DNA of 64,000 nt. Origin: Schaalia vaccimaxillae DSM 15804 (GTDB lineage: Bacteria; Actinomycetota; Actinomycetes; Actinomycetales; Actinomycetaceae). Of this stretch, positions 47,867-64,000 are shown one piece after another. The notes below the pieces were generated by a model. That model saw nothing but the letters and a program-made list of their open reading frames with translations. It was not told the origin of the DNA and did not search any database. The stretch spans positions 62,001 to 126,000 of the forward strand of contig NZ_ATUX01000009.1 in the NCBI RefSeq assembly GCF_000420425.1, in the 5' to 3' direction. Numbering within the stretch: the stretch's first letter is position 1; every line of letters starts with the position of its first letter. The position numbers were made by a program, and so were the translations under genes.

Positions 47867-48356
47867 TCGGGCTCGCCGCCAGAAGAAAGGTTCGATTGTG
47901 AGCGCTGTTCACAAGTCGATTCTTCACCGCCGTCTGAGTGACCTCTACAAACGATCTGTGCGAGACGAGGGCGAGGCCACTGTCGAGTTCGTCGCATTGA
48001 TGGTGATTGTCGTCGTCCCGGTGCTGTACCTCATCCTGGCTCTCGCACAGGTGCAGGCCAGTGTTTTGGCGTGCGAGGCCGCCTCCCGAGAGGCCGTGCG
48101 GATCTTGGCGCAGGATCCGGCCGAAGAAGCGGTTGCGAGAGCTCAGGTTTCTCTGGCTTTCCAGGACTTCGGCGTCGACGAGGGGGTTGATACAACCATT
48201 GGATGCCAAGTGTGTTCGGGTGCGAATCGGAATGTGACCGTCAGCGTGCGCACCAGTGTTCGTTTGCCGTTGATGCCAGATTGGGTCAATGACCGCGCGT
48301 GGATCCCGGTGACTTCAACAGCGAGTGCCCCAGTTGAAGGAGTAGTAATCCAATGA
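47856..48356 (+). CDS. TadE/TadF-like pseudopilin, second
   Basis: 166 residues from ATG 47856, overlapping the previous gene by 11 nt. N-terminal Arg/Lys-rich leader, then DEGEATVEFVALMVIVVVPVLYL, a membrane helix and EAASREAVRILAQDP, the TadE pattern. A C-x2-C pair (GCQVCSG) lies near the middle of the extracellular part. Its coding frame is distinct from the preceding gene. Role as a minor pseudopilin is inferred from location. Confidence 0.75.
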   Translation: MNVDRARRQKKGSIVSAVHKSILHRRLSDLYKRSVRDEGEATVEFVALMVIVVVPVLYLILALAQVQASVLACEAASREAVRILAQDPAEEAVARAQVSLAFQDFGVDEGVDTTIGCQVCSGANRNVTVSVRTSVRLPLMPDWVNDRAWIPVTSTASAPVEGVVIQ

Positions 48357-48820
48357 GGGGAATGCGCAGCCGATTGATGACAAGAAAAGGGCTGGCCGAT
48401 GATGACGGGCGCATTGGGATGCTGCTCGTGGCTTGCGTTGGCGTTGTTGTAGTTTTCGTTCTGATTTCGATGGCCGTCACCTCCGTTGCCATTCAAGACC
48501 GCAGGTTGATTGCCTGTGCAGACAGGGCTTCAAGCGCGGCTGCTGGTGCGATCGATGGGGACAGTTTCTACATTATGGGCGCGGACGAGCTGGTGCTTTC
48601 TGAAAGCGGGGCGGTGGCCAGCGCTACGAGTGCCGTAGAAATAATGTCTGATTCGTCATGTTCAGTAGGGGCCGGCGTTGAAATTATCGACACGGTGATC
48701 GTAGGTAACGAGGTCTTTGTGACTCTTCGTGCACAGTCTGTACTGCCGGGACTTCCGAGGGGATTTTCCGGTGTTGCGGCGCCGATTCTAGAGCGCACAT
48801 CATCGTCGATTATTCGGTGA
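48353..48820 (+). CDS. TadG-like/helicase-associated (Rv3654c-like) membrane protein
   Basis: 155 residues. A short basic leader with DDDGRIGMLLVACVGVVVVFVLISMAV as a single helix, followed by CADRASSAAAGAIDGDSFY. This resembles the small proteins at the end of actinobacterial tad operons (Rv3654c type, TadG-related von Willebrand-less form). The start overlaps the previous stop by 4 nt. No terminator was found directly after. It closes the tad operon. Confidence 0.65.
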   Translation: MRGMRSRLMTRKGLADDDGRIGMLLVACVGVVVVFVLISMAVTSVAIQDRRLIACADRASSAAAGAIDGDSFYIMGADELVLSESGAVASATSAVEIMSDSSCSVGAGVEIIDTVIVGNEVFVTLRAQSVLPGLPRGFSGVAAPILERTSSSIIR

Positions 48821-48842
48821 ATTATGTGGGAGAGAGCCTTAA

Positions 48843-50315
<1,473 letters not shown>

Positions 50316-50351
50316 TTTAGCGTGGTCGAGGGCTGATAGTTCAGCTGTTCG

Positions 50352-50392
50352 AGTGGGGGCCGACATCCTTGCGGATGCCGGCCCCCACTGAG
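50352..50392 (+). terminator. Terminator after gdhA
   Basis: AGTGGGGGCCG (50352-50362) pairs with CGGCCCCCACT (50379-50389), enclosing a second small stem CATCC/GGATG. A short T stretch follows. Confidence 0.85.
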
Positions 50393-50456
50393 TTTGCGAT
50401 GCGCTGAGCCGCGGTCGTCCTCGTTACCCCTGTCTTCACTCTTGCAGCGAATCGAT

Positions 50457-50462
50457 TAGGCT
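50457..50462 (+). promoter_or_regulatory. -10 box TAGGCT for leaderless prfB mRNA
   Basis: TAGGCT ends 6 nt before the GTG start of prfB, with no ribosome binding site in between. Confidence 0.45.
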
Positions 50463-50468
50463 AGACGG

Positions 50469-51590
50469 GTGGCCACTGAATTTGCTGAAGAAATCCAAAA
50501 CCTGCGCACCACGATGGACAACGTCATCGCGGTCGTCCAGCCCGACAAGCTGCGCGCCCAGATCGAAGAGTTTTCATCCCAGGCAACCGCTCCCGATCTG
50601 TGGGACGATCCGGCCCATGCTCAGGAAGTGACTTCAGCGCTGAGCCACCGCCAATCGGAGCTTGACCGGGTCACCAAGATGGTGGACAGAATCGACGATC
50701 TTGAAGCCATGGTTGAGATGGCAGGGGAGGATCCTGACGAGGCCGAACTCATCCTTGAAGAAGCGCAAAACGACCTCGATTCGCTCAAGAAAGACATCTC
50801 CGAACTTGAGATTCGCACGCTCTTGGACGGTGAGTACGACGAACGCAACGCCGTTATTACGATTCGTTCGGGCGCCGGCGGTGTCGACGCCGCTGACTTC
50901 GCTGAGATTCTGCTTCGCATGTACCTGCGTTGGGCCGAACGCCACGGCTACCCGACGAAGGTCATGGACACCTCCTACGCTGAGGAAGCCGGCCTGAAAT
51001 CAGCGACCTTTGAGGTCCAAGCCCCTTACGCCTACGGTACTTTGTCGGTTGAAGCTGGAACTCACCGCCTCGTGCGCATCAGTCCCTTCGATAACCAGGG
51101 GCGCCGTCAGACGTCCTTTGCTGCGGTTGAGGTCATTCCGCTCATTGAATCCACTGACCATATTGAGATTCCTGAAAACGAACTCAAGGTCGATGTGTTC
51201 CGCTCATCAGGTCCTGGCGGTCAGTCTGTGAATACGACGGACTCGGCTGTACGCATGACTCACATCCCTACAGGCATCGTCGTGTCAATGCAGGACGAAA
51301 AGTCCCAGATTCAAAACCGCGCTGCGGCCCTGAGGGTTCTGCAATCCAGGCTCCTAGTCTTGCGCCACGAGGAAGAACAAGCCAAGAAGAAAGAGCTCGC
51401 TGGCGACGTGAAAGCATCGTGGGGCGACCAGATGCGTTCCTACGTCCTCCAGCCCTATCAGATGGTTAAAGACCTGCGCACCGAGTTCGAGTCAGGCAAC
51501 CCACAAAACGTTTTTGACGGCGATATCGACGGTTTCATCAATGCCGGTATTCGCTGGCGTAAGAACCAACAAAACGAGACCGAAGGCTGA
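50469..51590 (+). CDS. prfB: Peptide chain release factor 2
   Basis: 373 residues. RF2 signatures: the SPF tripeptide (in [12 protein letters not shown]) that reads UGA and UAA, and the catalytic GGQ in [17 protein letters not shown]. Unlike enterobacteria, the frame is continuous and no UGA frameshift site is present. The GTG at 50469 gives the expected N-terminus ([18 protein letters not shown]). It heads the conserved prfB-ftsE-ftsX-smpB-ssrA block. Confidence 0.96.
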
Positions 51591-51601
51591 GTAGCGCAAC
51601 A

Positions 51602-51632
51602 CCGACATCGGGTGATCCACTCGAGATGTCGG
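51602..51632 (+). other. Weak hairpin after prfB
   Basis: CCGACATC and GATGTCGG form an 8-bp stem with a 15-nt loop, 12 nt past the prfB stop. No T tract follows, so it is at best a weak terminator. The rest of 51633-51805 shows no gene. Confidence 0.35.
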
Positions 51633-51805
51633 CCGATGTCGCTCGTGGCTTCGACCATCTTGCTGTGGTTCGCGCAAGGCGCCAATCATCCTCGTGTGCC
51701 GCAGGTGATGAACCTGGGATCGCACAGGATGCGTGTCGTTAGGCCCGCCTAGGCAAGGCGGTGCCTACTCTGATCGGGACCGTAACCCCGATCTGGAACG
51801 GAATC

Positions 51806-52495
51806 ATGATTCGATTCGACGACGTCACCATGGTGTACACGCCCGGTGCACGCCCCGCCCTGGACCACGTGTCCCTTGAGGTCGAACGAGAAGAGTTCGT
51901 CTTTCTCGTCGGAAAATCCGGCTCCGGAAAGTCCACTTTCCTTCAGCTTGTCATGCGAGAAATGAAAGCAACGTCAGGCAAAGTCTGGGTTCTGGGCCAG
52001 GATGTGTCCAAGCTATCGAACTGGTCTGTGCCGAAACTACGCCGTCAAATCGGGACGGTTTTTCAAGATTTCCGGCTGCTCCCGTCAAAGACCGTGTACG
52101 AAAATGTTGCTTTAGCGATGCAGGTCATTGGCAAAACCAAGCACGCTATCCAAACTCAGGTTCCCGAAGCCCTCGACCTCGTAGGGCTTTCCGGTAAGGA
52201 AAAGCGACTGCCGCACGAACTGTCTGGCGGCGAAGAACAGCGTGTTGCGATCGCGCGCGCAATGGTCAACCGTCCCGAATTGCTGCTAGCTGACGAACCG
52301 ACGGGCAATCTCGATCCCGACACGTCGCTGGGCATCATGCGTCTACTTGACCGCATTAACCGTGCAGGAACCACTGTTGTTATGGCCACCCACGACGCTG
52401 ACATCGTTAACCAGATGCGCAAGCGCGTCATTGAATTGCACGATGGCAACGTGGTCCGTGACCAGTCCCGCGGCGTCTACGGATCGGCCAGGTGA
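51806..52495 (+). CDS. ftsE: Cell division ATP-binding protein FtsE
   Basis: 229 residues. ABC ATPase: Walker [10 protein letters not shown], signature [14 protein letters not shown], Walker [32 protein letters not shown] at the N-terminus is standard for FtsE. It pairs with FtsX to couple ATP hydrolysis to cell-wall hydrolase activation at the divisome. ATG 51806 is chosen; upstream codons in frame lack support. FtsX begins 4 nt after the stop. Confidence 0.95.
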
Positions 52496-52499
52496 CACG

Positions 52500-53414
52500 A
52501 TGAAGCTACGTTTTATTTTCTCCGAGGTCGGCAAGGGCCTGGCTCGTAACCGCGCAATGTCTGTTGCGGTCATCCTCGTCACCTTCGTGTCCTTGCTCTT
52601 TGTGGGCGTCGCTGGCCTGGCTCAAATGCAGGTCTCCCGAATGAAGTCACAGTGGTACGACAAGATCGAAGTGTCGGTGTACATGTGTGCCATCGACGAC
52701 TCGGCGGCGTCGTGCAACGGTCAAGAAGCAACCGAAGAACAGATCGCTTCCGTGCGTAAGAAACTCCAGTCGGCCGAGATGTCCACCTATGTGGAAAAGG
52801 TCTACGAGGAATCCAAGGAAGAGGCGTACGCGAACTTCCGTGAACTTTACGGGGACCTAAAGATTGGTCAGTGGACCAGCGTTGACATGATGCAGGTGGC
52901 GTTCCGGATCAAACTCATTGACCCGGAGCAATATTCGATCATTAAAGAAGAGTTCTCCGGTGTCGATGGGGTCGCCGAGGTTCGAGATCAACGTGAGATT
53001 GTTGAGCCTCTATTCAAGGTCATTGATTCTGCGCGCAGTTTGGCGCTTGGTCTGGGTGCGGTCATGATTGTTGCTGCAATCTTGCTGATTTCGACAACAA
53101 TCCGCCTATCTGCAATGAGCCGCGAAACTGAAACTCAAATCATGCGCTATGTCGGCGCATCGAACCTGTTCATTCAGGCTCCATTCATGATCGAGGGTGC
53201 CCTTGCTGCCGTCGTTGGCGCGGTAGCTGCCATTGGCGCACTTTTTGCGGGCGTCCATTTCCTTATCCAGGGCTGGCTGGCACCGGCCTTCCAATGGACG
53301 AGCTTCATCTCATCCACCGAGGTGTGGATCATGACGCCGATTTTGATTCTGGCTGCGGTGCTGTTGGCGCTCTTTGCTTCAGCTTTGTCGTTGGCGAAGT
53401 ACACGAAGGCATGA
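52500..53414 (+). CDS. ftsX: Cell division membrane protein FtsX
   Basis: 304 residues, four membrane helices: near 20-45 (SVAVILVTFVSLLFVGVAGL), about 178-200 (LALGLGAVMIVAAILLISTT), about 230-250 (MIEGALAAVVGAVAAIGALF) and the C-terminus (ILILAAVLLALFASAL). A large extracellular loop, about residues 45-175, holds two cysteines in VYMCAIDDSAASCNG. It transmits FtsE ATPase changes to a periplasmic-side hydrolase. The next gene is a likely partner hydrolase. Confidence 0.94.
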   Translation: MKLRFIFSEVGKGLARNRAMSVAVILVTFVSLLFVGVAGLAQMQVSRMKSQWYDKIEVSVYMCAIDDSAASCNGQEATEEQIASVRKKLQSAEMSTYVEKVYEESKEEAYANFRELYGDLKIGQWTSVDMMQVAFRIKLIDPEQYSIIKEEFSGVDGVAEVRDQREIVEPLFKVIDSARSLALGLGAVMIVAAILLISTTIRLSAMSRETETQIMRYVGASNLFIQAPFMIEGALAAVVGAVAAIGALFAGVHFLIQGWLAPAFQWTSFISSTEVWIMTPILILAAVLLALFASALSLAKYTKA

Positions 53415-53428
53415 GTAGGAGGAGCATC

Positions 53429-54706
53429 GTGTCGATCAAGAAATCTTCGCGTAGACGAGGACGGGCCTGGCTCGTTGCTTTGACTGCCATGTGTCTGGGC
53501 GCCAGTCTGGCACCTGGATCGTCCCAAGAAGCATGGGCTGATGAGGATCGCGATCGCGCTGCACAAGCAGTGGAGGACGCGTCGCGAGATGTTGATAACT
53601 TGCGCTCTCAGATCGAGGGCATCGATGCCCATCTAGCAGATATCTTTATCGAATTGCAGGGGCTGAATGAGCAGATTCCTGTTGCGCAGAAGGCACTATC
53701 TGATGCTGAATCTCGGTACGAGGCCGCGAGGCGTCAGCATGAGGTCGCCCTCGCACAATTGGAGTCTGCTCAGGCAGAGCACGATGATTTGGCGGCGAGC
53801 GTGCAGGAGGCAGAGCAGCACCAGTCTGAGGCCACTGCGGCCATCGCTGACTTGGCACGTCAGATGTACAAGAATGGTTCTGCCTCTGCTGTCACTGTTG
53901 CTTTGACTGCTAAGGGAACGGCGTCGATTGATCAACGTACTGCCGCGGCCGAGGCGATGAGTCGTTCTCAATCTCAAGCACTTAATGCTGCCCTCGACGC
54001 TCAGGCGACTCAGCGCAGTCAGGTGGCTCGTCAAAAGGCGATCACTGAGAGGATTGCCAAGCTTGAGGCGACGGCCCAGAAAGCCTCCGAAGAGGCTGGT
54101 ATTGCGCAAGAGGAGGCTCGCAGCAAGGTCAATGAGTTGGACTCGTTGAAGTCGGCGACACAGGCGAAACAGGCTGAGTGGGATTCGATGAAGGGCGAAG
54201 CTCAGGCCCAACTTAAACAGGCTGAGGTCGACTACGCGGCGAAACAGGCTGAGCTCGCCAAGATCGACGAACAGAACCGATTAGCGAATACCACCTACTC
54301 CACTAGCGCTGGCGGCTGGGTAAATCCGGTCAACAATATGACTGTGACCTCGCCTTTTGGTTGGCGTATGCATCCTGTGCTCGGCTATCAAAAGTTCCAC
54401 CAGGGAGTCGACTTCGGGGCCATGTGTGGTGACAAGATTTATGCGGTCGCAGATGGAACGGTGTCGACTGTGTCATCGAATGTGTCAGCTGGCAACTACA
54501 TCGATGTCAACCATGGAATGATTGGCGGGGTCTCGACGCTCACTGAGTATCTGCATCTTCAAGCAACCTATGTGTCGCCTGGCCAGTCTGTGCGTGCGGG
54601 CGATGTTCTTGGTGAAGTAGGAATGACTGGTTATTCCACCGGATGTCACTTGCATTTCGGCGTGATGAATAACGGTAGCTATGTTGATCCGATGAACTAC
54701 TTCTGA
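53429..54706 (+). CDS. M23 peptidoglycan endopeptidase with coiled coil (EnvC/PcsB-like FtsEX partner)
   Basis: 425 residues. The GTG at 53429 has an ideal AGGAGG six nt upstream, favoured over an ATG inside the ftsX stop. Signal peptide to about residue 38 (LVALTAMCLGASLAPG, ending SSQEAWA). A long coiled coil covers about residues 50-285 (LRSQIEGIDAHLADIF, later AKLEATAQKASEEAG). The C-terminal M23 (LytM) domain has FHQGVDFGA and HLHFGVM, the four zinc ligands (H-x-x-x-D and H-x-H). The architecture is that of EnvC-type activators, but with intact zinc ligands, so it could cut peptide bridges itself under FtsEX control. Location directly after ftsX supports this. Confidence 0.85.
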   Translation: MSIKKSSRRRGRAWLVALTAMCLGASLAPGSSQEAWADEDRDRAAQAVEDASRDVDNLRSQIEGIDAHLADIFIELQGLNEQIPVAQKALSDAESRYEAARRQHEVALAQLESAQAEHDDLAASVQEAEQHQSEATAAIADLARQMYKNGSASAVTVALTAKGTASIDQRTAAAEAMSRSQSQALNAALDAQATQRSQVARQKAITERIAKLEATAQKASEEAGIAQEEARSKVNELDSLKSATQAKQAEWDSMKGEAQAQLKQAEVDYAAKQAELAKIDEQNRLANTTYSTSAGGWVNPVNNMTVTSPFGWRMHPVLGYQKFHQGVDFGAMCGDKIYAVADGTVSTVSSNVSAGNYIDVNHGMIGGVSTLTEYLHLQATYVSPGQSVRAGDVLGEVGMTGYSTGCHLHFGVMNNGSYVDPMNYF

Positions 54707-54802
54707 TCGCGCTAATATGGGTGCCCGCTGCTCATTCGGGTGGCTGAGGAGTCAGGCTAACCAGGTCGTCCTCGTTCGACTTAATGCAGAAGGGGGTGCG
54801 TC

Positions 54803-55330
54803 GTGCCCAAGGACTGGAAGAAACCGAAGATGACCGAAGGGGAACGTCGCAAGGCTGCCTCCGACGCGAAGAAAACGGTCGCTCGCAATAAGAAAGCTCG
54901 CCACGACTATCTCATTGAGGACACGTGGGAGGCTGGGCTGGTCTTGTCTGGTACGGAGGTTAAGGCCCTGCGAATGGGGCGAGCTTCCTTGGTGGATTCG
55001 TGGGTTGAAGCTAAAGATGGCGAAGCCTGGTTGTATGGCGCAAATATTCCTATGTATGCGCAGGGGTCGTGGAACAATCACGCTCCAACCCGCAAGCGCA
55101 AATTGTTGTTGCACAAGTCGGAGATTGAGCGCCTTCAACAAAAAGTGATGGTCAAGGGGTACACGATCGTTCCTTTGGAGCTGTATTTTTTGGGTGGGCG
55201 CGCCAAGGTCGAAATTGCGCTCGCTAAAGGTAAACAGGAGTGGGATAAGCGCCAGGCTTTGCGCGAGGCGCAGGATAAGCGCGAGGCGCTGCGTGAGATG
55301 CGCCGGTACACAAAGCAGGCTCGTCGGTAG
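54803..55330 (+). CDS. smpB: SsrA-binding protein SmpB
   Basis: 175 residues, slightly longer than usual (about 155-160) because of a Lys-rich N-terminal extension. Core: NKKARHDYLIEDTWEAGLVL, GTEVKALRMGRASL, YAQGSWNNHAPTRKRKLL, and LGGRAKVEIALAKGKQEWDKR. It binds tmRNA and is needed for rescue of stalled ribosomes. The GTG at 54803 follows AAGGGGG. ssrA lies 109 nt downstream, the standard pairing. Confidence 0.95.
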   Translation: MPKDWKKPKMTEGERRKAASDAKKTVARNKKARHDYLIEDTWEAGLVLSGTEVKALRMGRASLVDSWVEAKDGEAWLYGANIPMYAQGSWNNHAPTRKRKLLLHKSEIERLQQKVMVKGYTIVPLELYFLGGRAKVEIALAKGKQEWDKRQALREAQDKREALREMRRYTKQARR

Positions 55331-55366
55331 TTTTCCGCGAAATGGTTCTATATCTTTCGCCAGCCC

Positions 55367-55395
55367 TTGAATATATTTGAGTGGCGCGATACTGT
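55367..55395 (+). promoter_or_regulatory. ssrA promoter
   Basis: TTGAAT (55367-55372) and TACTGT (55390-55395) with exactly 17 nt between them. Transcription would start near 55402, giving a precursor about 38 nt longer than the mature tmRNA 5' end. Confidence 0.75.
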
Positions 55396-55439
55396 GATGT
55401 GTCCGGTCATGTGCGGCCGGGGAGTTGAAGAACTCAATA

Positions 55440-55812
55440 GGGGATGATCGGTTTCGACGGTGGTCGTCGATCGAGGGGAAGCGGGCCGAGAATGTGCGCT
55501 CAACTCGTTAACGCTGCGTGCAAACCAATAGGTGCCGAACAGAACCGCACCGACTACGTTCTCGCCGCCTGATATCGCCGCGTGAACCTTTAGTCCGTCA
55601 GCCCAGGTGGTGCTCCCAGCCTGGTGTCTGGCGTCATTCAGGGAGCCACTGGGTGCGGGTCATGTCGGTGGGCCCGTTCCGACATTTAATCGACTGAGCT
55701 CATCGGCAGCAGGCCTGCATGACGTCGAGAGCTGAGAAATAAATAGCAGGATGCGCCCGGAGAAGACCTCGGGGCCGGCCATCGGACGGGGGTTCGATTC
55801 CCCCCATCTCCA
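55440..55812 (+). ncRNA. ssrA: Transfer-messenger RNA (tmRNA)
   Basis: The 5' acceptor strand GGGGATG (55440-55446) pairs with CATCTCC (55805-55811). The typical GGTTTCGACGG follows the 5' end, and the TTCGATTC T-loop lies just before the 3' end. The tag frame starts at GCC 55534 and encodes AEQNRTDYVLAA, then TGA (55570-55572). The final LAA is the protease signal; V replaces the usual A before it. No CCA is encoded; ACACA follows the acceptor. Together with SmpB it rescues stalled ribosomes. Confidence 0.93.
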
Positions 55813-55819
55813 CACAGGG

Positions 55820-55850
55820 AATCCCAGAACCGCATGGTTCTGGGATTTTC
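55820..55850 (+). terminator. ssrA terminator
   Basis: A perfect 12-bp stem AATCCCAGAACC with GGTTCTGGGATT around GCAT, then TTTCTG. Confidence 0.9.
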
Positions 55851-55927
55851 TGTTGCTATCAAGCCGTTTTTGGAGCATTGTGTCTAGCATCCAATAGCGC
55901 ACAATAGGGCATGAAAGGGCATCCTTA

Positions 55928-55958
55928 GTGGCACGACGGTGGCACGGGATGTGGCACG
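55928..55958 (+). repeat. Three spaced copies of GTGGCACG downstream of ssrA
   Basis: GTGGCACG starts at 55928, 55939 and 55951 (spacing 11 and 12 nt), about 80 nt after the ssrA terminator. Regular spacing next to a tmRNA 3' end resembles integrase arm-type sites of tmRNA-targeting elements. No integrase or element body is visible. The gap 55851-56057 holds nothing else I can support. Confidence 0.45.
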
Positions 55959-56057
55959 AGATTGCGTGCCAGATCATCGAGGAGCAATATGCGGCTCGTC
56001 TTAAAAAGCGTGCGCGGCATTGGGATGGTCGCAGCTTGAGTATTAGACAGGTTGAAT

Positions 56058-56567
56058 TCAACTCTTATCCCACGGGACGGGTTTTCTGACTGGGTATCGC
56101 CGATCTATTTTAAATGAGTAGCAGACGACCGGGGTGTCGTCAGTCAGATCTACCAAACCCATGTCACTGACGTATTCAGGGGAACGCCAAAAACGTTCGT
56201 GTTCTCTGCGCCAATGCTGGGCATCCGTATAGCCCTCGCCTTCAGCGATCGCGTGCTGATCAGTAATGTCACCGAGGCGTGTGATCCTGACGTCAATTAT
56301 GCATGTCACGCACACAATATTGTCGTGTGAATCAACTACTGCTTCGAGAGCTTCGAGGTCTGTTAATGGATTTCGTTCCGGCTCGAATTCGGCGAGCAGA
56401 CAGCTTGTGCTGGTTTTGGTTCCTTCGATAATCGCTTCCACGAGAGAGTCACGAAGAGGGCCAGGGTAGGCGTACTCGCCGCGTGGGATTTGAGCCAAGG
56501 GTGGGTGGTTCTCAGATCTTTCAGCGCTACTTCGAGGTTGCGGATCAATTGGCTTGGAGTGCGTCAT
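56058..56567 (-). CDS. ASCH-domain protein
   Basis: 169 residues. Pattern YAYPGPLRDSLVEAIIEGTKTSTSCLL, then VVDSHDNIVCVTCIIDVRITRLGDI and a helix HAIAEGEGYTDAQHWRREHERFW, ending SPEYV... This is the ASCH fold (RNA-binding-like beta barrel; EVE/PUA relatives), with the G-x-K-T-S/A-T motif. Members of this size in actinobacteria bind nucleic acid or nucleosides; some hydrolyse N4-acetylcytidine. The start at 56567 (ATG) follows GAAAGGTC. It is convergent with the ssrA region. Confidence 0.8.
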   Translation of the reverse strand: MTHSKPIDPQPRSSAERSENHPPLAQIPRGEYAYPGPLRDSLVEAIIEGTKTSTSCLLAEFEPERNPLTDLEALEAVVDSHDNIVCVTCIIDVRITRLGDITDQHAIAEGEGYTDAQHWRREHERFWRSPEYVSDMGLVDLTDDTPVVCYSFKIDRRYPVRKPVPWDKS

Positions 56568-56722
56568 GGACAGGACCTTTCAACAGGTGAGTTGGGGCGT
56601 AGAGCAGAGGACAGGCACACGGGCTCGATCAACAGTCATCGTCTTTCAATACTGAACCTCAGCATCTCCTCATTTCAGCGGATATTCTCATGTCAATACT
56701 GCAGCGACCAAAGGAGACCGCT

Positions 56723-56899
56723 ATGCCAGAGCTCGACGACGTCAATGTTGGTGAAAAGGTTGAGGTGCTCGGCGAAGAGTATGAGCGAATTGAACCCATC
56801 GAGGGCGATAACTGGACTGACGAGTGGCGCAACACGCAAACTGATGAGCACCTGTCGAACTCGGCGATTGAAACGATGGCTAAGTCCGAGGACGACTGA
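56723..56899 (+). CDS. Small acidic hypothetical protein
   Basis: 58 residues: begins MPELDDVNVGEKVEVLGEEYE, then RIEPIEGDNWTDEWRNTQTDE, with a Glu/Asp-rich end. The AAGGAGA ribosome binding site six nt upstream of ATG 56723 supports translation; an in-frame ATG at 56690 lacks one. I do not recognise a family. It is divergent from the ASCH gene, with which it could share a promoter region. Confidence 0.55.
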   Translation: MPELDDVNVGEKVEVLGEEYERIEPIEGDNWTDEWRNTQTDEHLSNSAIETMAKSEDD

Positions 56900-57046
56900 T
56901 CGCCCTCGTCGGAACTGCCGGACGGCGGCGAGGCACCCGCTAGACCTGCCGGATCCTGCGCGCGAAACCCACACAGGAAACTCATAGGTGGACCCAACGA
57001 CTTCTCAAGGTTGCCCGCTTAACTTTGTAGTCATCACAAAGGAATA

Positions 57047-57082
57047 CGGCTCCGGATCACGGTGATCCACTCGAAGGAGCCG
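57047..57082. other. Nested hairpin in the gap before the permease gene
   Basis: CGGCTCC (57047-57053) pairs with GGAGCCG (57076-57082), enclosing GGATCAC/GTGATCC. This and a terminator at 57138-57172 lie in a 317-nt gap (56900-57216) without a gene. Together they could be a small RNA, but no promoter is clear. Confidence 0.4.
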
Positions 57083-57137
57083 ATGACACCTCTGAGGAGA
57101 TCGCATAGGGAAGACTCGCACTGTGTTGATGGGATGC

Positions 57138-57172
57138 AAGAAGGGCTCGGCCGTAAGGCCGGGCCCTTCTTG
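57138..57172. terminator. Bidirectional terminator
   Basis: AAGAAGGGC and GCCCTTCTT (with inner CGGCC/GGCCG) form a long stem around GTAA. It is placed to end the minus-strand permease gene and any plus-strand transcript from the small acidic gene. Confidence 0.88.
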
Positions 57173-57216
57173 TGTGTATCCAGTCCAAAGCCTCAGCTAG
57201 GACTTGGAATAGAAAC

Positions 57217-59187
57217 TCAGTCCACCTGATCCAATCGGCGAGACCATGCGGTGCGGATCGGGTTTGCATCTGCGACGAGAGCATTGAAACGCTCGTCAGC
57301 AATATCGATGACCTCGCCCAGAGCGAAACGAGCTTCGCGGGTAGGGGAGGACTCGACGCGCTTCCAACCAGACTCAATCAGCTGGGAACGATCAGCCAAG
57401 GTCGTCACGCACATGACTAGAGGACGGTTGAACTTCTCGCGATATGCGCTAGCGATGGCACGCAGTTCCTTCTCCTCGTGATCGTCGAAGGAACCCAAGG
57501 ACAGTGCCGCGGTATCAGCGTGGGCCTGCTCATCGCCTGCTTCGGCCAGTACGAGGTCGACGATGTCGGTGTAGCCCGACAACAATTCTTCCTTCTCCTG
57601 GTCGGAAGCGGCGATGACCTCGTCCTCGAAAGCCTGACGCAAATCGTTGGCGGTAGCGAAGGGACGGTGTTCCCAGGCGCGCTCAACCGGCCATGCCTGG
57701 CCGGAGAACATCGAAGAGAAGGCAGAAACGAACTGGTCGCGCTCCATGCCGTTGACTTCGTCCAATGACACGGGCTTTCCGTCAACCAGGGCAACGGCAG
57801 GAGTATCTGCCTTGCCAATGTGGAAGAATATGAGGTTGAGGAGGACCGCGCTCAGCGCACCAATGGTCACGCCCGAACCGAAAATAATCTGCAGCCACGA
57901 GGGCATACCCGCAGCGATACCAGGCTTGAAAGTCACCAGCATGGCCAGGCCAACCGATATGGACACGATTGTCGCATTGCGGTTGTCGCGCATATCAACC
58001 TTGGACAGGGTCTGGATGCCAACCACCGCAACGGAAGCAAACATCGTCAGCGAGGCTCCGCCAATGACGGGTGTGGGGATGGCCGCGACGACAGCAGCCG
58101 CCTTGGGCAACAGTCCGAGGATAATCATGATGACGCCAGCGAGAGTCACCACCCAACGTGACATGACGCGGGTCAGGCGAACGAGGCCGACGTTTTGCGC
58201 GAAGCAGGTGTACGGGAAAGAGTTGAGGATTCCGCCGAGCAGAGTGGACAGGCCGTCTGCGCGCAGCGCTGCAGCAATGTGCTTGGGCGTGATGCGTTTG
58301 CCCACGACCTCGCCAGTGGCAAAGACGTCGCCGGTGGTTTCCACGGCGGTGACGGCCATGACGATCACCATGGACAAGATGCCGGTGGCGGAGAACTGCG
58401 GGATCCCGAAGAAGAATGGGGTGGTGATGCCAATGGCCGCGGCTTCACCAACGCCAGAGAAGTCGGTATCACCCAGCGCAGCGGCGACGCAGGTTGCAAC
58501 AACCAGGCCAATGAGCACCGAAATCGTTCCGATGAATCCCTTGAAGACTCGTTGGACGATGACGATCAACGCAATCGTCAACGCCGCGTAACCAAAGCCC
58601 TTGAGTGTCAGCTCATTGATTACGGCTTCGCTGGAGCCTTCTGGAGCATAAGTCCCGTAGGAGACGATGTCGCCGGCGGACACGCTCATGAGCGTCGTTC
58701 CCATGATGGTCAGCAAAGTGCCGGTCACGACCGGCGGGAAGAATCGCAGTAGCTTGGCGAACCAGGGAGCTGCAATGAAAGTGATGATGCCGGCGGCAAT
58801 GATCGAGCCATACATGACGGGCAGCCCTGCGTTGCCCCCTTGGCCGCCCGAGGCTGCCAGGCCGATAGCGATCAGCGGCGACACCGCGGTGAAAGTGACA
58901 CCCTGGATCAGCGGCAAACGCACGCCGATCTTTGGGCCGAGGCCGGCCGACTGGATGATGGTGGCGATACCGCAGGTGAAGAGGTCAGCGTTGATGAGGT
59001 GAATCGTTGTTTCGGCATCCAGGTTCAGCCCCTGCGCGATGACGAGGGGGACAATCACAGCTCCCGCGTAGAACGCGAGGACGTGCTGGATGGACAAGAC
59101 TGTGAGCTTGCCGACTTGGGGTACTTGGTCGACGGGATGCTTCGAGGAGGCGGATGCCCCCTCGAGAGTCTTCGAAGAGCGAGCCAT
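57217..59187 (-). CDS. NCS2 purine/uracil permease fused to an OHCU-decarboxylase-like domain
   Basis: 656 residues. Residues 1-455 are an NCS2 nucleobase:cation symporter with about 14 helices: GKLTVLSIQHVLAFYAGAV, the LPLIQGVTFTAV and FATGEVVGKRIT segments, the substrate-site region TAVETTGDVFA, and NVGLVRLTRVMSR. That motif set is closest to xanthine/urate permeases. Residues about 475-650 resemble 2-oxo-4-hydroxy-4-carboxy-5-ureidoimidazoline decarboxylase (UraD): EVNGMERDQFVSAFSSMF, RPFATANDLRQAFEDE, and AIASAYREKFNRPLVMCV. In active enzymes the catalytic pattern is H-P-D-L; here it is GYTDIV, with Tyr539 in place of His. Catalysis is doubtful. Urate import with a ligand-binding tail is possible. 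The gene stands alone. Confidence 0.82.
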   Translation of the reverse strand: MARSSKTLEGASASSKHPVDQVPQVGKLTVLSIQHVLAFYAGAVIVPLVIAQGLNLDAETTIHLINADLFTCGIATIIQSAGLGPKIGVRLPLIQGVTFTAVSPLIAIGLAASGGQGGNAGLPVMYGSIIAAGIITFIAAPWFAKLLRFFPPVVTGTLLTIMGTTLMSVSAGDIVSYGTYAPEGSSEAVINELTLKGFGYAALTIALIVIVQRVFKGFIGTISVLIGLVVATCVAAALGDTDFSGVGEAAAIGITTPFFFGIPQFSATGILSMVIVMAVTAVETTGDVFATGEVVGKRITPKHIAAALRADGLSTLLGGILNSFPYTCFAQNVGLVRLTRVMSRWVVTLAGVIMIILGLLPKAAAVVAAIPTPVIGGASLTMFASVAVVGIQTLSKVDMRDNRNATIVSISVGLAMLVTFKPGIAAGMPSWLQIIFGSGVTIGALSAVLLNLIFFHIGKADTPAVALVDGKPVSLDEVNGMERDQFVSAFSSMFSGQAWPVERAWEHRPFATANDLRQAFEDEVIAASDQEKEELLSGYTDIVDLVLAEAGDEQAHADTAALSLGSFDDHEEKELRAIASAYREKFNRPLVMCVTTLADRSQLIESGWKRVESSPTREARFALGEVIDIADERFNALVADANPIRTAWSRRLDQVD

Positions 59188-59441
59188 GCTGTTCTCCTGG
59201 TAATGGAGTGAAGGGACGTATCTATTATTCGATGGATACTGGTGTTGCAGAGAATCTCGTGTCTAAACTCGCAGGGACCTAGGTCCTTTGTGGGGCTGGA
59301 AGTAATTTCAAAGCGATGTGAATTAGTTGAACTTCTCCCGTCGTGCGGAGTCTCTTCCGAGATGCAGCAGTGTGCGACCAAGAATTTGTCTGGGCAAAAG
59401 TTCTGCATAGTGATTTGCTCAATGGCGAAGTTTTCGCTGAG

Positions 59442-59453
59442 GCTAACGCTTGC
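59442..59453 (+). promoter_or_regulatory. LacI-type operator candidate upstream of the LacI gene
   Basis: GCTAACGCTTGC matches the reverse complement of the site at 60700-60711 in 9 of 12 positions, including a central ACGCT. It is 85 nt before the LacI start and could allow autoregulation. The remaining 59188-59537 shows no gene. Confidence 0.4.
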
Positions 59454-59537
59454 CCAATGTGTTGACAGTTATGATCAGGCTAAACGCACCTATTGCCGCA
59501 GTAAGTGTCGGGGACGACTTTGGACAAGGAGGCCAAT

Positions 59538-60560
59538 ATGAGCAAGCGATCGCAGAATCGTCCGCCCGCCATGATGGACGTGGCTGCGCTCGCTGGAGTC
59601 TCCCATCAGACGGTCTCCCGAGTTCTCAATGGCACGGGAAAGGTTGCTCCGGACACTCGTGAGCGGGTGCTGGCAGCGATTGATCAGCTTGGGTATCGGC
59701 GTAACTCTATGGCGCGTGCATTAGTGACACGCAAGTCGGGCATCATAGGTATCGTCACTACGACCTCTCCTCACTACGGTCCATCTTCTATGCGTGTGTC
59801 CATCGAAGTTGAATCTCGGCGCGCCGGTTACAGCACCAGTGTGATGACGTTGGAAGATTTCTCGACTGTGTCTCTTTCGAACGCGATTGATCATTTTCTT
59901 GGGTTGGCTGTTGAAGCAATCATTGTTATAGCGCCTGTTGTGGAACTAGCCGCCACTATCCAGATGGTCCGTTCTCCTGTTCCGATTGTTGCTGTTACTG
60001 CGGCTGAAGATGTTGTTACCGAGAGGATTCGTCTGATTCGGGCTGATCAACGTGGGGGAGCACGTCAAGCTGTTCGTCATCTTTTAGACCTTGGACACCG
60101 CGATATTGCGCATATTGCTGGCCCGCAGGATTGGTTCGAAGCGAGGATGCGTTTGGAAGGGTGGCAGGCTGAACTGTCTGAGCATGGCCTCCCGGAGAGG
60201 CTTTCACATTATCGCGGTTGGGAGGGGACCGTTGGTTATGAGGCGGGGTTTAGGTTTATTCGTGAGGGCCTTCCAACTGCGATCTTTTGTGCCAATGATG
60301 AGGTTGCTCTTGGTTTGATTAAGGCTTTGGACGAGGCCGGATTATCAGTACCCGACGATGTGTCGATTGTCGGTTTTGATGATGAGCCGAAAGCAAAGTT
60401 TTTTCGTCCTGCATTGACAACTGTTAGACAGGATTTCTTGGATTTGGGGCGACAAGCCTTGGCAGCTGTTATGTCTGCGATTGGTGGGATTGATGAGGCC
60501 GAGCCGATTATTCGCCCAACTCATCTTATAGTCAGGGATTCGACTGCTCCTTTGCCGTGA
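59538..60560 (+). CDS. LacI-family transcriptional regulator
   Basis: 340 residues. N-terminal helix-turn-helix MMDVAALAGVSHQTVSRVLNG, with hinge helix region YRRNSMARALVTRKSG; then a periplasmic-binding-protein-like core (VAVTAAEDVVTERIRLIRADQ, GHRDIAHIAGPQDWFEARMR, FCANDEVALGLIKALDEAGL, DVSIVGFDDEP). ATG 59538 is supported by AGGAGG. It lies directly upstream of a sugar-binding lipoprotein and its ABC transporter, and likely represses them in the absence of the sugar. The sugar is not certain. Confidence 0.93.
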   Translation: MSKRSQNRPPAMMDVAALAGVSHQTVSRVLNGTGKVAPDTRERVLAAIDQLGYRRNSMARALVTRKSGIIGIVTTTSPHYGPSSMRVSIEVESRRAGYSTSVMTLEDFSTVSLSNAIDHFLGLAVEAIIVIAPVVELAATIQMVRSPVPIVAVTAAEDVVTERIRLIRADQRGGARQAVRHLLDLGHRDIAHIAGPQDWFEARMRLEGWQAELSEHGLPERLSHYRGWEGTVGYEAGFRFIREGLPTAIFCANDEVALGLIKALDEAGLSVPDDVSIVGFDDEPKAKFFRPALTTVRQDFLDLGRQALAAVMSAIGGIDEAEPIIRPTHLIVRDSTAPLP

Positions 60561-60699
60561 CGCTCTATTTCCTTTCGCTAGGAATGCTCAGTGAACGGTA
60601 TAGGTCAGATCGGTGCTCTGCTGACTTGGCTGTACCGAGGCCAATTGGAATGCTTGATTGTTATCTAATGGTAATCCTAGTGGTTTGCGCCACTAATAA

Positions 60700-60711
60700 G
60701 TGAGCGTTAAC
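60700..60711 (+). promoter_or_regulatory. LacI-type operator candidate upstream of the sugar-binding gene
   Basis: GTGAGCGTTAAC is an imperfect palindrome with a central CG, the usual layout of actinobacterial LacI sites. It is about 70 nt before the sugar-binding gene start. Confidence 0.45.
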
Positions 60712-60779
60712 CTCAAGGAAGTGGCAATCTGTTGTTGAGCTGTTGCCATGATCGCTTGGTACTCAATGAGGAGCAAACC

Positions 60780-61961
60780 ATGAAAGAAAAACACTTTGCA
60801 TATCGCGGTGGATTCGGTTCAATCGCAATGCTTGCAGCGGGATCATTCCTGCTAACGGCATGCTCTGGCGGAGGAGCAGGGTCCACATCGGACGGTGTTT
60901 CTTCGGGGGCTGTGTCAAATGAGGAGATCACGGTAGGTGTCGCAATGCCTACCCAGACTTCCGAACGTTGGATTGCTGACGGCAATGCAGTCAAAGAAGG
61001 TCTTGAGAAGGCTGGATATAAAGTAGACCTGCAGTTCGCCAACGATGATATTCCGACTCAGACTCAGCAGATCGATCAAATGATCACTAATGGAGCGGAT
61101 ATCTTGGTCATCGCCTCCATTGATGGAACGGCGCTATCGAGTCAGCTTGATGCCGCAGGTGCGGCCAATATTCCTGTCGTGTCGTACGACCGCCTTATTC
61201 GTGACAACGAGAATGTTGATTTTTATGTCTCATTCGACAACTACAAAGTCGGTGTTGCGCAAGGCACGGCATTGCTCTACGGCCTTGGCCTGACAGACAA
61301 GGAAGGCAAGAAAGCCAATGACGCACCAAAAGGGCCGCTCAATATCGAACTTTTTGCAGGGTCTCCCGACGATAACAATGCCGGTTTCTTCTTTGACGGC
61401 GCAATGGATACCCTCAAGCCGTTTATTGACGACGGAACGTTAGTTGTCAAGTCGGGCCAGACTTCTTTCGACCAAGCGGCTACTCTTCGCTGGTCTCAGG
61501 AGGCTGCTCAGAAGCGAATGGAAGACCTTTTGACATCGACCTACGGCGGGGGATCTGAACCGCTCGCGGGAATCCTGTCGCCCTTCGATGGTATTTCCCG
61601 CGGCATTCTCACAGCCCTACAGGGCGCGGGCTATGGCCCTGCCCTATCCGATGGGCTTCCTGTTGTCACAGGACAGGATGCTGAGATTGCCTCTGTCAAA
61701 CTTATCAATGATGGAGTCCAGCAATCGACAATCTTCAAGGATACCCGCCTGCTTGCTGCGCAAGCAGTGAAGGCGGTTGAGGCAATCGGTTCGGGTGCAG
61801 AACCAGAAGCTAACGACACTGAAACCTACGATAACGGCGTCAAGGTTGTTCCTTCGTTCCTGCTTGAGGTTCAGACCATCTACCGTGACAATATTGAATC
61901 CGACATTATCGGATCGGGTTACTACACGGCTGAAGAAGTCTCAGCAGGCGTCTCTCAGTAA
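60780..61961 (+). CDS. ChvE-like sugar-binding lipoprotein
   Basis: 393 residues. Lipoprotein signal with SFLLTAC (Cys28) after a hydrophobic stretch. The mature protein is a periplasmic-binding type I fold: VGVAMPTQTSERWIADGNAV, the DILVIASIDGTALSSQLDAA segment, PVVSYDRLIRDNENVDFYVSFD and ILSPFDGISRGILTALQ. This set matches ChvE and multiple monosaccharide binding proteins (glucose, galactose, arabinose, xylose). It is the first gene of the transporter operon; a strong hairpin separates it from the ATPase. Confidence 0.92.
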   Translation: MKEKHFAYRGGFGSIAMLAAGSFLLTACSGGGAGSTSDGVSSGAVSNEEITVGVAMPTQTSERWIADGNAVKEGLEKAGYKVDLQFANDDIPTQTQQIDQMITNGADILVIASIDGTALSSQLDAAGAANIPVVSYDRLIRDNENVDFYVSFDNYKVGVAQGTALLYGLGLTDKEGKKANDAPKGPLNIELFAGSPDDNNAGFFFDGAMDTLKPFIDDGTLVVKSGQTSFDQAATLRWSQEAAQKRMEDLLTSTYGGGSEPLAGILSPFDGISRGILTALQGAGYGPALSDGLPVVTGQDAEIASVKLINDGVQQSTIFKDTRLLAAQAVKAVEAIGSGAEPEANDTETYDNGVKVVPSFLLEVQTIYRDNIESDIIGSGYYTAEEVSAGVSQ

Positions 61962-61968
61962 AGAAGCC

Positions 61969-62001
61969 GGTGGGTGGATGATCGCAAATCATCCACCCAC
62001 C
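61969..62001 (+). other. Intercistronic hairpin after the binding-protein gene
   Basis: A perfect 14-bp stem GGTGGGTGGATGAT with ATCATCCACCCACC around CGCAA, starting 7 nt after the stop. There is no T run, so it probably stabilises the 3' end of the binding-protein mRNA, allowing higher binding-protein levels than ATPase. Confidence 0.75.
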
Positions 62002-62029
62002 GCCCATCCCTGGCGAATATGGAAGAAAA

Positions 62030-63577
62030 ATGTCGTCGAATATCTTAGAGATGCGCCGTATTGATAAGGGCTTCAACGGGGTTCCTGTGCTCAAGCAAGT
62101 CAACCTTGAAGTTCGGCGCGGCGAAGTTCATGCCTTGTGTGGAGAAAACGGTGCTGGTAAATCAACACTGATGAAAGTGCTATCCGGTGTCTACCCGCGA
62201 GGGCAATATGAAGGGCAAATCCTCTGGGAGGGGAAAGAGGTTTCTTTCTCGTCGATCAAAGATTCTGAGCATCTTGGGATCGGGATTATTCACCAGGAAC
62301 TTGCTCTCGTTCCCTACCTATCGATTGCTGAAAACCTGTTCCTCGGAATGGAGAAGCCTCGAAAGGCTGGGCTGATCGATTGGCATGAAGTCAACCATCG
62401 TGCCGAAAAAATCCTGGCACGAGTCGGACTCAAGGAAGAAGTTACTGTCAAGATTGGGCAGCTTGGAGTTGGAAAGCAGCAGCTTATTGAAATTGGTAAG
62501 GCTCTCTCCAAGGATGTCAAGCTTCTAATCCTTGATGAACCCACGGCAGCGCTTAATGACAACGACTCAGCTGTTTTCCTTGACCTCGTCCGTCAGCTTC
62601 GCGACTCCGGTGTATCAATCGTGATCATTTCCCACAAACTCAACGAAATCGCTGAGATTGCTGACCGAACAACTATTTTGCGTGACGGGCAGACGATTGA
62701 GACTCTTGACATGCGCGACCCGACTTCTACGCAGAATAAGATCATCTCGCTGATGGTTGGGCGCGAACTATCGCAGCGTTATCCAAACCGAGACTCGCAT
62801 ATCGGCGAAGAACTTTTTCGAGTGGAAGACTGGACCGTTTACCATCCCACGCAACAGGATCGCATAATCATTAAAGACGCTTCTTTCAATGTGCGCCACG
62901 GTGAAGTTGTTGGTATCGCGGGACTCATGGGTGCGGGACGTACTGAACTCGCAATGAGCATATTTGGCCGATCCTATGGGCGAAACATAACGGGCAGGAT
63001 TTACAAAGACGGAAAACAGATCGAAATTAATACGGTTTCCGATGCTATCAAGCACGGTATTGCCTATGCGACCGAAGACCGTAAGCAGTACGGGCTGAAC
63101 CTTATTGACGATATTCGACACAATATTGCCGCAGCCGGTCTGTTCAAACTATCCAAACGAGGAATGGTCAACGGTAACGAGGAACTCGCTGTTGCAAACG
63201 AATATAAAGAACGGATAAATATTCGTTCGCAGTCAGTCCTGCAGATCACTGGTTCATTATCAGGCGGAAACCAGCAAAAGGTAGTCCTGTCGAAGTGGCT
63301 GTACACGGACGCAGATGTCTTGATTCTTGACGAGCCGACGCGCGGCATAGATGTTGGTGCGAAGTTTGAGATCTATACGCTGATTAATCAGATGGTGGCT
63401 GAAGGCAAAGCTGTGATCGTGATTTCTTCCGAATTAGAAGAGGTTTTGGGTATATCGGACCGCGTCTATACGCTCGCATACGGGCGTATAACAGGCGAGC
63501 TCTCAGTAGCAGAAGCCAACCAGGAAAATCTCATGGAACTTATGACAATTGAACCTTCGAGGGAGAAAGACCAGTGA
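62030..63577 (+). CDS. Sugar ABC transporter ATPase (GguA/MmsA-type, twin ABC domain)
   Basis: 515 residues. First ABC domain: Walker [16 protein letters not shown]-like [13 protein letters not shown], and [13 protein letters not shown] as the signature region. Second ABC domain: [13 protein letters not shown] (modified Walker A), [15 protein letters not shown], and [13 protein letters not shown]. That is the fused two-domain ATPase of monosaccharide uptake systems. The ATG at 62030 has a weak ribosome binding site (GAAGAAAA), consistent with lower expression than the binding protein. The permease start overlaps its stop (GTGA). Confidence 0.94.
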
Positions 63578-64000
63578 GCAATACTCAAAATTTCGGCGCG
63601 ATGATCAAAGGCAATCTTCGCCAAAGTGGTATTTTCTTCGCTTTCTTTGCCATTGTCGTTCTATTTGCGATACTCAATCCTTCATTCTTAAGCCCAGGCA
63701 ATCTCACGAACATTGTCCTGCAGTATTCCTACATCCTCGTCTTAGCCATTGGCATGCTTTTCGTCATTGTTTTGGCACAGATCGATCTTTCGGTGGGGTC
63801 AGTAGTCGCGGTGACAGGTGCGCTATCCGCCGTGCTCGTGATCAAACACGGGATGCCGTGGTGGGTGGGGGTTCTTGCGGCGATTGCACTGGGGCTCATC
63901 ATTGGGGCGTGGCAAGGATTCTGGGTTGCATACGTTGGGATTCCCGGCTTCATCGTGACCCTGGCGGGAATGCTTCTGTTTCGAGGACTGACCTTCCAGA
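63574..64000 (+). CDS. Sugar ABC transporter permease (GguB-like), 3' end outside window
   Basis: The GTG at 63574 overlaps the ATPase stop by 4 nt. The first 142 residues are visible: a membrane segment [40 protein letters not shown] (the DLSVG motif of RbsC/GguB-type permeases), then [21 protein letters not shown]. Last visible stretch is ...[13 protein letters not shown]. It belongs to the operon of the binding protein and ATPase. Confidence 0.92.

Follow-up and report, generated by a model that had tools for sequence, protein, structure and literature searches.

A purine permease fused to an OHCU-decarboxylase-like domain without the catalytic histidine: a probable ancient pseudoenzyme with a putative regulatory role

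The gene located at positions 57217–59187 of the window (the whole stretch of 64,000 nucleotides that was analysed) encodes a purine permease whose chain continues into a domain resembling UraD, the 2-oxo-4-hydroxy-4-carboxy-5-ureidoimidazoline (OHCU) decarboxylase, with a tyrosine at the place of the catalytic histidine. The initial annotation had read the combination as a sensing or regulatory module for urate uptake.

Composition and predicted fold of the fusion protein

The features of the locus, all on the minus strand, are as follows.

57217..59187, minus strand: NCS2 purine permease–pseudo-UraD fusion, whole gene, 656 residues plus stop (open reading frame and domain matches)
57922..59109, minus strand: NCS2/SLC23 permease domain, residues 27–422 (PF00860; TIGR03173 spans residues 31–454; fold match to UapA 5i6c)
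57754..57825, minus strand: stretch separating the permease from the UraD domain, residues 455–478, leading into a conserved Asn-x-Met at residues 479–481
57283..57753, minus strand: pseudo-UraD domain, residues 479–635 (PF09349)
57571–57573, minus strand: codon TAC of Tyr539, replacing the catalytic His (column 67, zebrafish numbering; from alignments)
57514..57516, minus strand: codon of Asp558, replacing Glu (column 87; column comparison)
57418..57420, minus strand: codon of Leu590, replacing Phe, Tyr or Met (column 119; column comparison)
57289..57291, minus strand: codon of Arg633 (column 161), identical in the 100 fused and 58 non-fused domains counted (column comparison)
57138..57171, minus strand: GC-rich inverted repeat 3' of the stop, a possible terminator (by eye; a consensus scan found no terminator here)

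The open reading frame proposed for this locus was borne out as a minus-strand gene of 656 residues, which starts with ATG a few bases downstream of an AGGAG (located by eye). The proposed joining of an NCS2 permease to a UraD-like domain was recovered by Pfam well above the cut-offs, with PF00860 (Xan_ur_permease) at residues 27–422 (E-value 2e-91, 307 bits against a cut-off of 27) and PF09349 (OHCU_decarbox) at residues 479–635 (E-value 1.3e-28, 101 bits against 24); the earlier estimate of residues 470–656 for the second domain was a fair one. The two-domain fusion itself is already visible to Pfam, and an hmmscan of the fusion protein at E-values up to 1 returned nothing beyond these two families, with no STAS domain. 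Among the NCBIfam models, the permease exceeds the cut-offs of the xanthine permease model TIGR03173 (459.3 against 414.15) and of TIGR00801 (337.2 against 291.8), and the curated decarboxylase models are missed, both TIGR03164 (62.1 against 96.25) and TIGR03180 (31.6 against 139.4). Judged from the sequence, the substrate of the permease is most likely xanthine or a related oxopurine.

The UraD domain comes after the last permease helix and opens with the conserved Asn-x-Met. It is predicted with a pLDDT of 91.7, and the model superimposes on OHCU decarboxylase 2o70 with Z 21.6 and rmsd 2.0 over 166 aligned residues (model 8–174 on chain 1–167), as well as on other UraD structures (Klebsiella 3o7h, Z 18.2; 2q37, Z 15.3). 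The first row with an unrelated fold reaches only Z 3.6, and no STAS protein is found among the fold matches listed for this part. The copy in the window is thereby predicted to keep the UraD fold. The predicted permease core (model residues 15–456) matches UapA 5i6c with Z 47.7 and rmsd 2.8 over 432 aligned residues, and SLC26Dg with Z 34.4; the model output lists no contacts between the two domains. Chance similarity or mis-alignment is ruled out by the Pfam, phmmer and fold matches taken together.

The histidine position and the surrounding pocket

Tyr539 corresponds to position 67 of the zebrafish OHCU decarboxylase, the H of its HPDL motif, in a phmmer alignment that is gapless up to that point, and the superposition on 2o70 also pairs Tyr539 with chain position 67. 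We take His67 of the HPDL/HPRI motif to be the catalytic residue of UraD; the zebrafish and Klebsiella UraD papers, and likewise that on Arabidopsis, reportedly assign catalysis to the histidine at position 67. Both the UraD similarity claimed by the initial annotation (101 bits in the HMM search made here) and the tyrosine that it had placed at the catalytic position therefore stood up to alignment and structure matching, and the listing of the His status of actinobacterial fusions that it had called for yielded no histidine among 100 distinct fused domains, as detailed below.

Domains were gathered from genus and phylum samples, with regions taken by place, and from 80 named-genome loci (the best 80 of 92 confirmed), the scan pattern for the latter being a stretch that leaves out column 67, though biased to fused copies. 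The 171 loci and the window gave 160 distinct domains, 100 of them permease-fused and 60 non-fused. The fused sequences, which trace to one clade and thus show conservation and not 100 independent changes, have Tyr in 92 cases and Phe in 8 at the His column, and never His. Of the non-fused domains, 57 of 60 have His, a count that includes the ambiguous L071 (scored as His only via an insertion, and as Glu in another count); the exceptions are the divergent L070 (Glu) and two contig-edge fragments with the upstream part cut off (one Tyr, one Phe). A loss of His peculiar to one species is ruled out by its absence from all 100 distinct fused domains. A histidine merely shifted by one or two columns was rejected as well, as His occurs within columns 64–71 in only four of the 100, and the next P stays aligned in all four. 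Three of those are Pseudonocardia rows with His directly before Tyr, and the fourth, L140, has it two before Phe. The Pseudonocardia fusions (L166, L169, and L171) read HYPDL at this place, with the His immediately preceding the Tyr, and then carry long insertions.

The replacements extend to other positions of the pocket. Column 87 is Asp in 93 fused domains, Glu in 6 and Ser in one, and Glu in 56 of the 58 non-fused domains that remain when the edge fragments are left out; column 119 is Leu in 98 and Met in 2 fused domains, and Phe in 39, Tyr in 10 and Met in 9 of the same 58. Arg161 and Glu146 are invariant across all 158 domains. The same replacements occur in at least two classes, Actinomycetes and Rubrobacteria. 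Together with the retained Arg161, the regular Asp and Leu replacements suggest that the pocket was remodelled in a defined manner and not left to decay, and the Phe found in 8 of 100 fused domains indicates that the Tyr hydroxyl is dispensable. The fused domain might still be an enzyme, its Tyr or Phe supporting a changed chemistry or residual OHCU decarboxylation, and the invariant Arg161 would agree with this, as would column 87, where 99 of 100 fused domains have Glu or Asp; we consider it very unlikely, in view of the Phe variants, of the catalytic part that His plays at column 67, and of a second OHCU-domain match in 24 of 26 fusion genomes (see below).

The Actinomyces-type copies, 21 distinct domains of which 18 come from the window's genus and 3 from named Actinomyces loci, have a pocket that is altered further: Ser84 has become Ala in 16, Gln88 has become Thr in 18, and column 117 has become Arg in all 21. 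This additional drift suggests that the Actinomyces-type ligand is probably not an intermediate of the urate pathway, and with such a loss of pocket residues the pocket could equally bind nothing. At the other end of the range, the fusion L058 has Tyr for His, yet Ser84, Glu87 and Gln88 are kept, which leaves a site close to that of active enzymes. The genome that carries it, G109, has two pseudo-UraD fusions (L057 and L058), on two different permease lineages.

A second, separate pseudoenzyme candidate is encoded in L071 (7121–7723) and in L070, a small UraD-like protein that stands alone and shows no clear catalytic His. The L071 gene lies just upstream of succinate dehydrogenase-like genes (by eye). 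Split OHCU matches are also found in further genomes of the genus to which L070 and L071 belong, probably Streptomyces, and in the named Streptomyces genome L147; this likeness is one reason for taking the genomes of the domain-less permeases described below for Streptomyces.

Phylogeny, selection and genomic setting

The domain tree leaves out L132 and L163, which lie at contig edges, and the divergent L070 and L071; thinning at 75% identity then took the set from 162 domains to 98. Its 48 fused rows fall into a single clade (support 100/100) inside the HPDL-type UraD proteins. When the motif and pocket columns were masked and the zebrafish sequence was dropped too, the clade was retained with support of 100/99, from a bootstrap short of full convergence. 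L143, which is labelled Acidobacteria, lies on a short contig of a metagenome-assembled genome, and its domain pairs with L164 in the tree; it may be a binning error.

The permease halves give a different picture. In the permease trees (Priestia dropped from both; thinned to 42 and to 43 rows) those of the fusions split into two lineages, and a single clade is disfavoured with an AU p of 0.017 (35 fused rows versus 7). L033 (in G301), L057 (in G109), and L059 (in G120) belong to the different lineage, near unfused permeases of related genomes and of Deinococcus. A single fusion event with a single permease was rejected, since the domain tree has one clade but the permease tree two fused lineages. 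The conflict would seem to reflect either a transfer of the domain or an exchange of the permease half. In Deinococcus aetherius and Priestia filamentosa the same two gene types adjoin one another (with a 4-base overlap in Deinococcus), but they are separate genes, and their uraD carries His, unlike the fused domain of the window; such neighbouring pairs are a plausible precursor state of the fusion. Among the six plasmid records that match 80% or more of the query, two are fused, both from Actinomycetota, two are the separate pairs of Deinococcus aetherius and Priestia, and the remaining ones are from Deinococcus sp. QL22 and Roseateles.

Five, perhaps six, Streptomyces-like permeases of the main lineage have no UraD domain. 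Two of them (L193 and L196) nest within the fused permease lineage (lineage support 100/100, with 91/87 at the fork that places them inside), and L194, L195, and L197 share 80–93% identity with whichever of the two is closer; L205 is placed in the lineage as well, on a long branch. These permeases stop 27–40 residues past the permease match, as if the domain had been lost. Transport is thus apparently not strictly dependent on the domain, and these relatives contradict the notion, suggested by the 21 of 21 carriers in the window's genus that keep both parts, of a permease unable to work without it.

The selection acting on the Actinomyces-type copies was estimated by a simple Nei–Gojobori count on 23 sequences (253 pairs, of which 119 are unsaturated). 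Over the unsaturated pairs the permease has a median dN/dS of 0.23 and the UraD domain one of 0.34; the domain values range from 0.01 to 0.71 among the 40 pairs listed. Mean identity is 0.64 for the domain versus 0.80 for the permease, the domain thus changing faster. These copies are under purifying selection. A stop inside the UraD domain was found in none of the 21 genus carriers. We regard as extremely improbable that the tail is a decaying remnant, a read-through fusion drifting to loss: its faster evolution and its absence from some Streptomyces-like relatives would be expected of a remnant, and the median of 0.34, the 21 uninterrupted reading frames, the confidently predicted fold and the replacements common to Actinomycetes and Rubrobacteria would not.

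In the window's genus, the fusion is present in 21 of 35 genomes (that of the window and 34 congeners) and is each time the sole OHCU domain. No close permease without the domain was found in the genus among the matches listed. One member without the fusion (G005) has a scrap of 28 residues (L218, 1966–2049) that is 68% identical to residues 73–100 of the window permease, and it is possibly a remnant of a deleted fusion gene. Searches of the 35 genomes found no uricase, no xanthine dehydrogenase family protein and no second UraD, and the matches to xanthine phosphoribosyltransferase TIGR01744, present in all 35, are none of them above the cut-off. In the control genome of Corynebacterium glutamicum an OHCU match is present. 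The domain therefore persists in this genus without its pathway of origin.

Outside the genus the pathway accompanies the fusion: uricase was found in 9 of 10 fusion genomes and xanthine dehydrogenase family proteins in 10 of 10. In a second set of 26 fusion genomes, drawn from the 58 loci whose flanks are free of uraD, uricase and uraH, uricase is present in 22 and a second OHCU-domain match elsewhere in 24, and the two that lack the latter are Actinomyces. Uricase is thus found in 31 of the 34 fusion genomes checked outside Actinomyces. Of 78 fusion loci, 20 have at least one of the genes for stand-alone uraD, uricase and uraH in a flank that measures 6 kb at most and is shorter where the contig ends, and in Rhodococcus the operon order is fusion–uraD–uraH–uricase. 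In Kribbella L104, a PucR-type regulator precedes the fusion, and xanthine dehydrogenase subunits and XdhC follow it. An arrangement as in Rhodococcus would suit a docking platform, on which the dead domain recruits active UraD, HIU hydrolase or uricase and unstable urate intermediates are passed on, HIU and OHCU being described as short-lived in PMC4562309. A platform of this kind is nevertheless improbable, as the fusion occurs in 21 of 35 genomes of a genus that has neither uricase nor another UraD for it to recruit, and 58 of the 78 loci have none of the three genes in the flank.

The same gene searches bear on the role first proposed for the domain, that of a sensing or regulatory module for urate uptake. 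Its architectural basis and the missing His held, and a regulatory function fits the pocket remodelling, the purifying selection and the domain-less permeases; the urate part is weak, given that uricase, xanthine dehydrogenase and a second UraD are absent from the genus, and urate sensing in the window's organism is doubtful.

The surroundings of the gene in the window are of a different kind. An ASCH-domain gene on the same strand lies on one flank; on the other, sugar ABC transporter genes come after a divergently oriented LacI regulator. No purine gene occurs among the four neighbours scanned. No purine riboswitch was found near the fusion gene, the sole Rfam match in window positions 48000–64000 being a tmRNA, and scans for promoters and terminators around the gene each returned none. 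The tmRNA gene (window 55440–55815, plus strand) is located downstream of an open reading frame at 54803–55330 that is smpB-like by eye.

Comparison with known systems and possible function

The core family and the predicted fold of the permease half are those of the NCS2/NAT (SLC23) xanthine permeases PbuX, UapA, and UraA, to which the fusion of the window adds a folded C-terminal domain. This domain has the predicted fold, the sequence family and the invariant Arg161 in common with UraD (zebrafish 2o70, Klebsiella 3o7h, 2q37), and differs from it in Tyr for the catalytic His, Asp for Glu87, Leu at 119 and scores under the NCBIfam cut-offs for the enzyme. The SLC26/SulP transporters have the same 7+7 core and likewise a C-terminal domain after the last helix, although the latter is a STAS domain and not one of UraD fold. 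According to PMC6497670, deletion of STAS in SLC26 impairs transport, with dimerisation still possible, and SLC23 proteins are said there to have no C-terminal domain of the STAS type.

On balance, and with modest confidence, we favour the reading of the protein as an NCS2 permease with an ancient pseudoenzyme OHCU-decarboxylase tail that would serve as an accessory regulatory, probably ligand-sensing, cytosolic domain. An OHCU-decarboxylase domain on the cytosolic C-terminus of the permease would have turned into a pseudoenzyme long ago and lost its decarboxylase activity; the rebuilt pocket would bind a cytosolic purine or ureide, and the ligand-bound domain would adjust uptake by feedback or trans-inhibition, much as STAS does in the related SLC26. 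The regulatory role is one that we infer from sequence comparison, and the unfused relatives in the same permease lineage fit an accessory, separable domain. We can tentatively speculate further, on a scenario possible but not probable as a whole, that the UraD domain was made dead once and became a purine-responsive allosteric part of NCS2 permeases, as the analogue of STAS in SLC23, was carried on two permease lineages, and was rewired to a new ligand in host-associated Actinomyces after the loss of the urate pathway.

The main rival assigns the pseudo-UraD domain a part in assembly or stability, in which it binds no ligand and helps the permease to fold, dimerise or stay in the membrane. 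Dimerisation does matter in this family, as UraA must dimerise to transport and UapA needs to do so in cells, according to PMC5539350. The conserved Asn-x-Met at the opening of the domain is in keeping with such a part, as is the Actinomyces-type pocket, which has changed more although the predicted fold persists. Neither Arg161 in 100 of 100 fused domains nor the nearly fixed Asp and Leu would, however, be needed in a simple scaffold, and some relatives manage without the domain, hence we rate an assembly role as rather unlikely.

If the favoured regulatory reading holds, SLC23 transporters, described as being without a C-terminal domain, would gain a candidate built-in regulator. Inactive enzymes that took on regulatory work are known from elsewhere; an enzyme joined to the transporter that supplies its own pathway, and afterwards inactivated, would make a clear-cut and testable case. 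Among the literature matches listed, neither titles nor abstract openings mention the fusion, the absence of His throughout its lineage, the pocket changes that go with it, or the persistence of the domain where the pathway is missing. Database labels for such fusions vary between solute carrier family 23 protein and uraD, with the attendant risk of a fused pseudo-UraD being mistaken for an OHCU decarboxylase. The fusion of Rubrobacter radiotolerans is labelled uraD, 2-oxo-4-hydroxy-4-carboxy-5-ureidoimidazoline decarboxylase, so that pathway reconstructions may credit the enzymatic step to a copy without the catalytic His.
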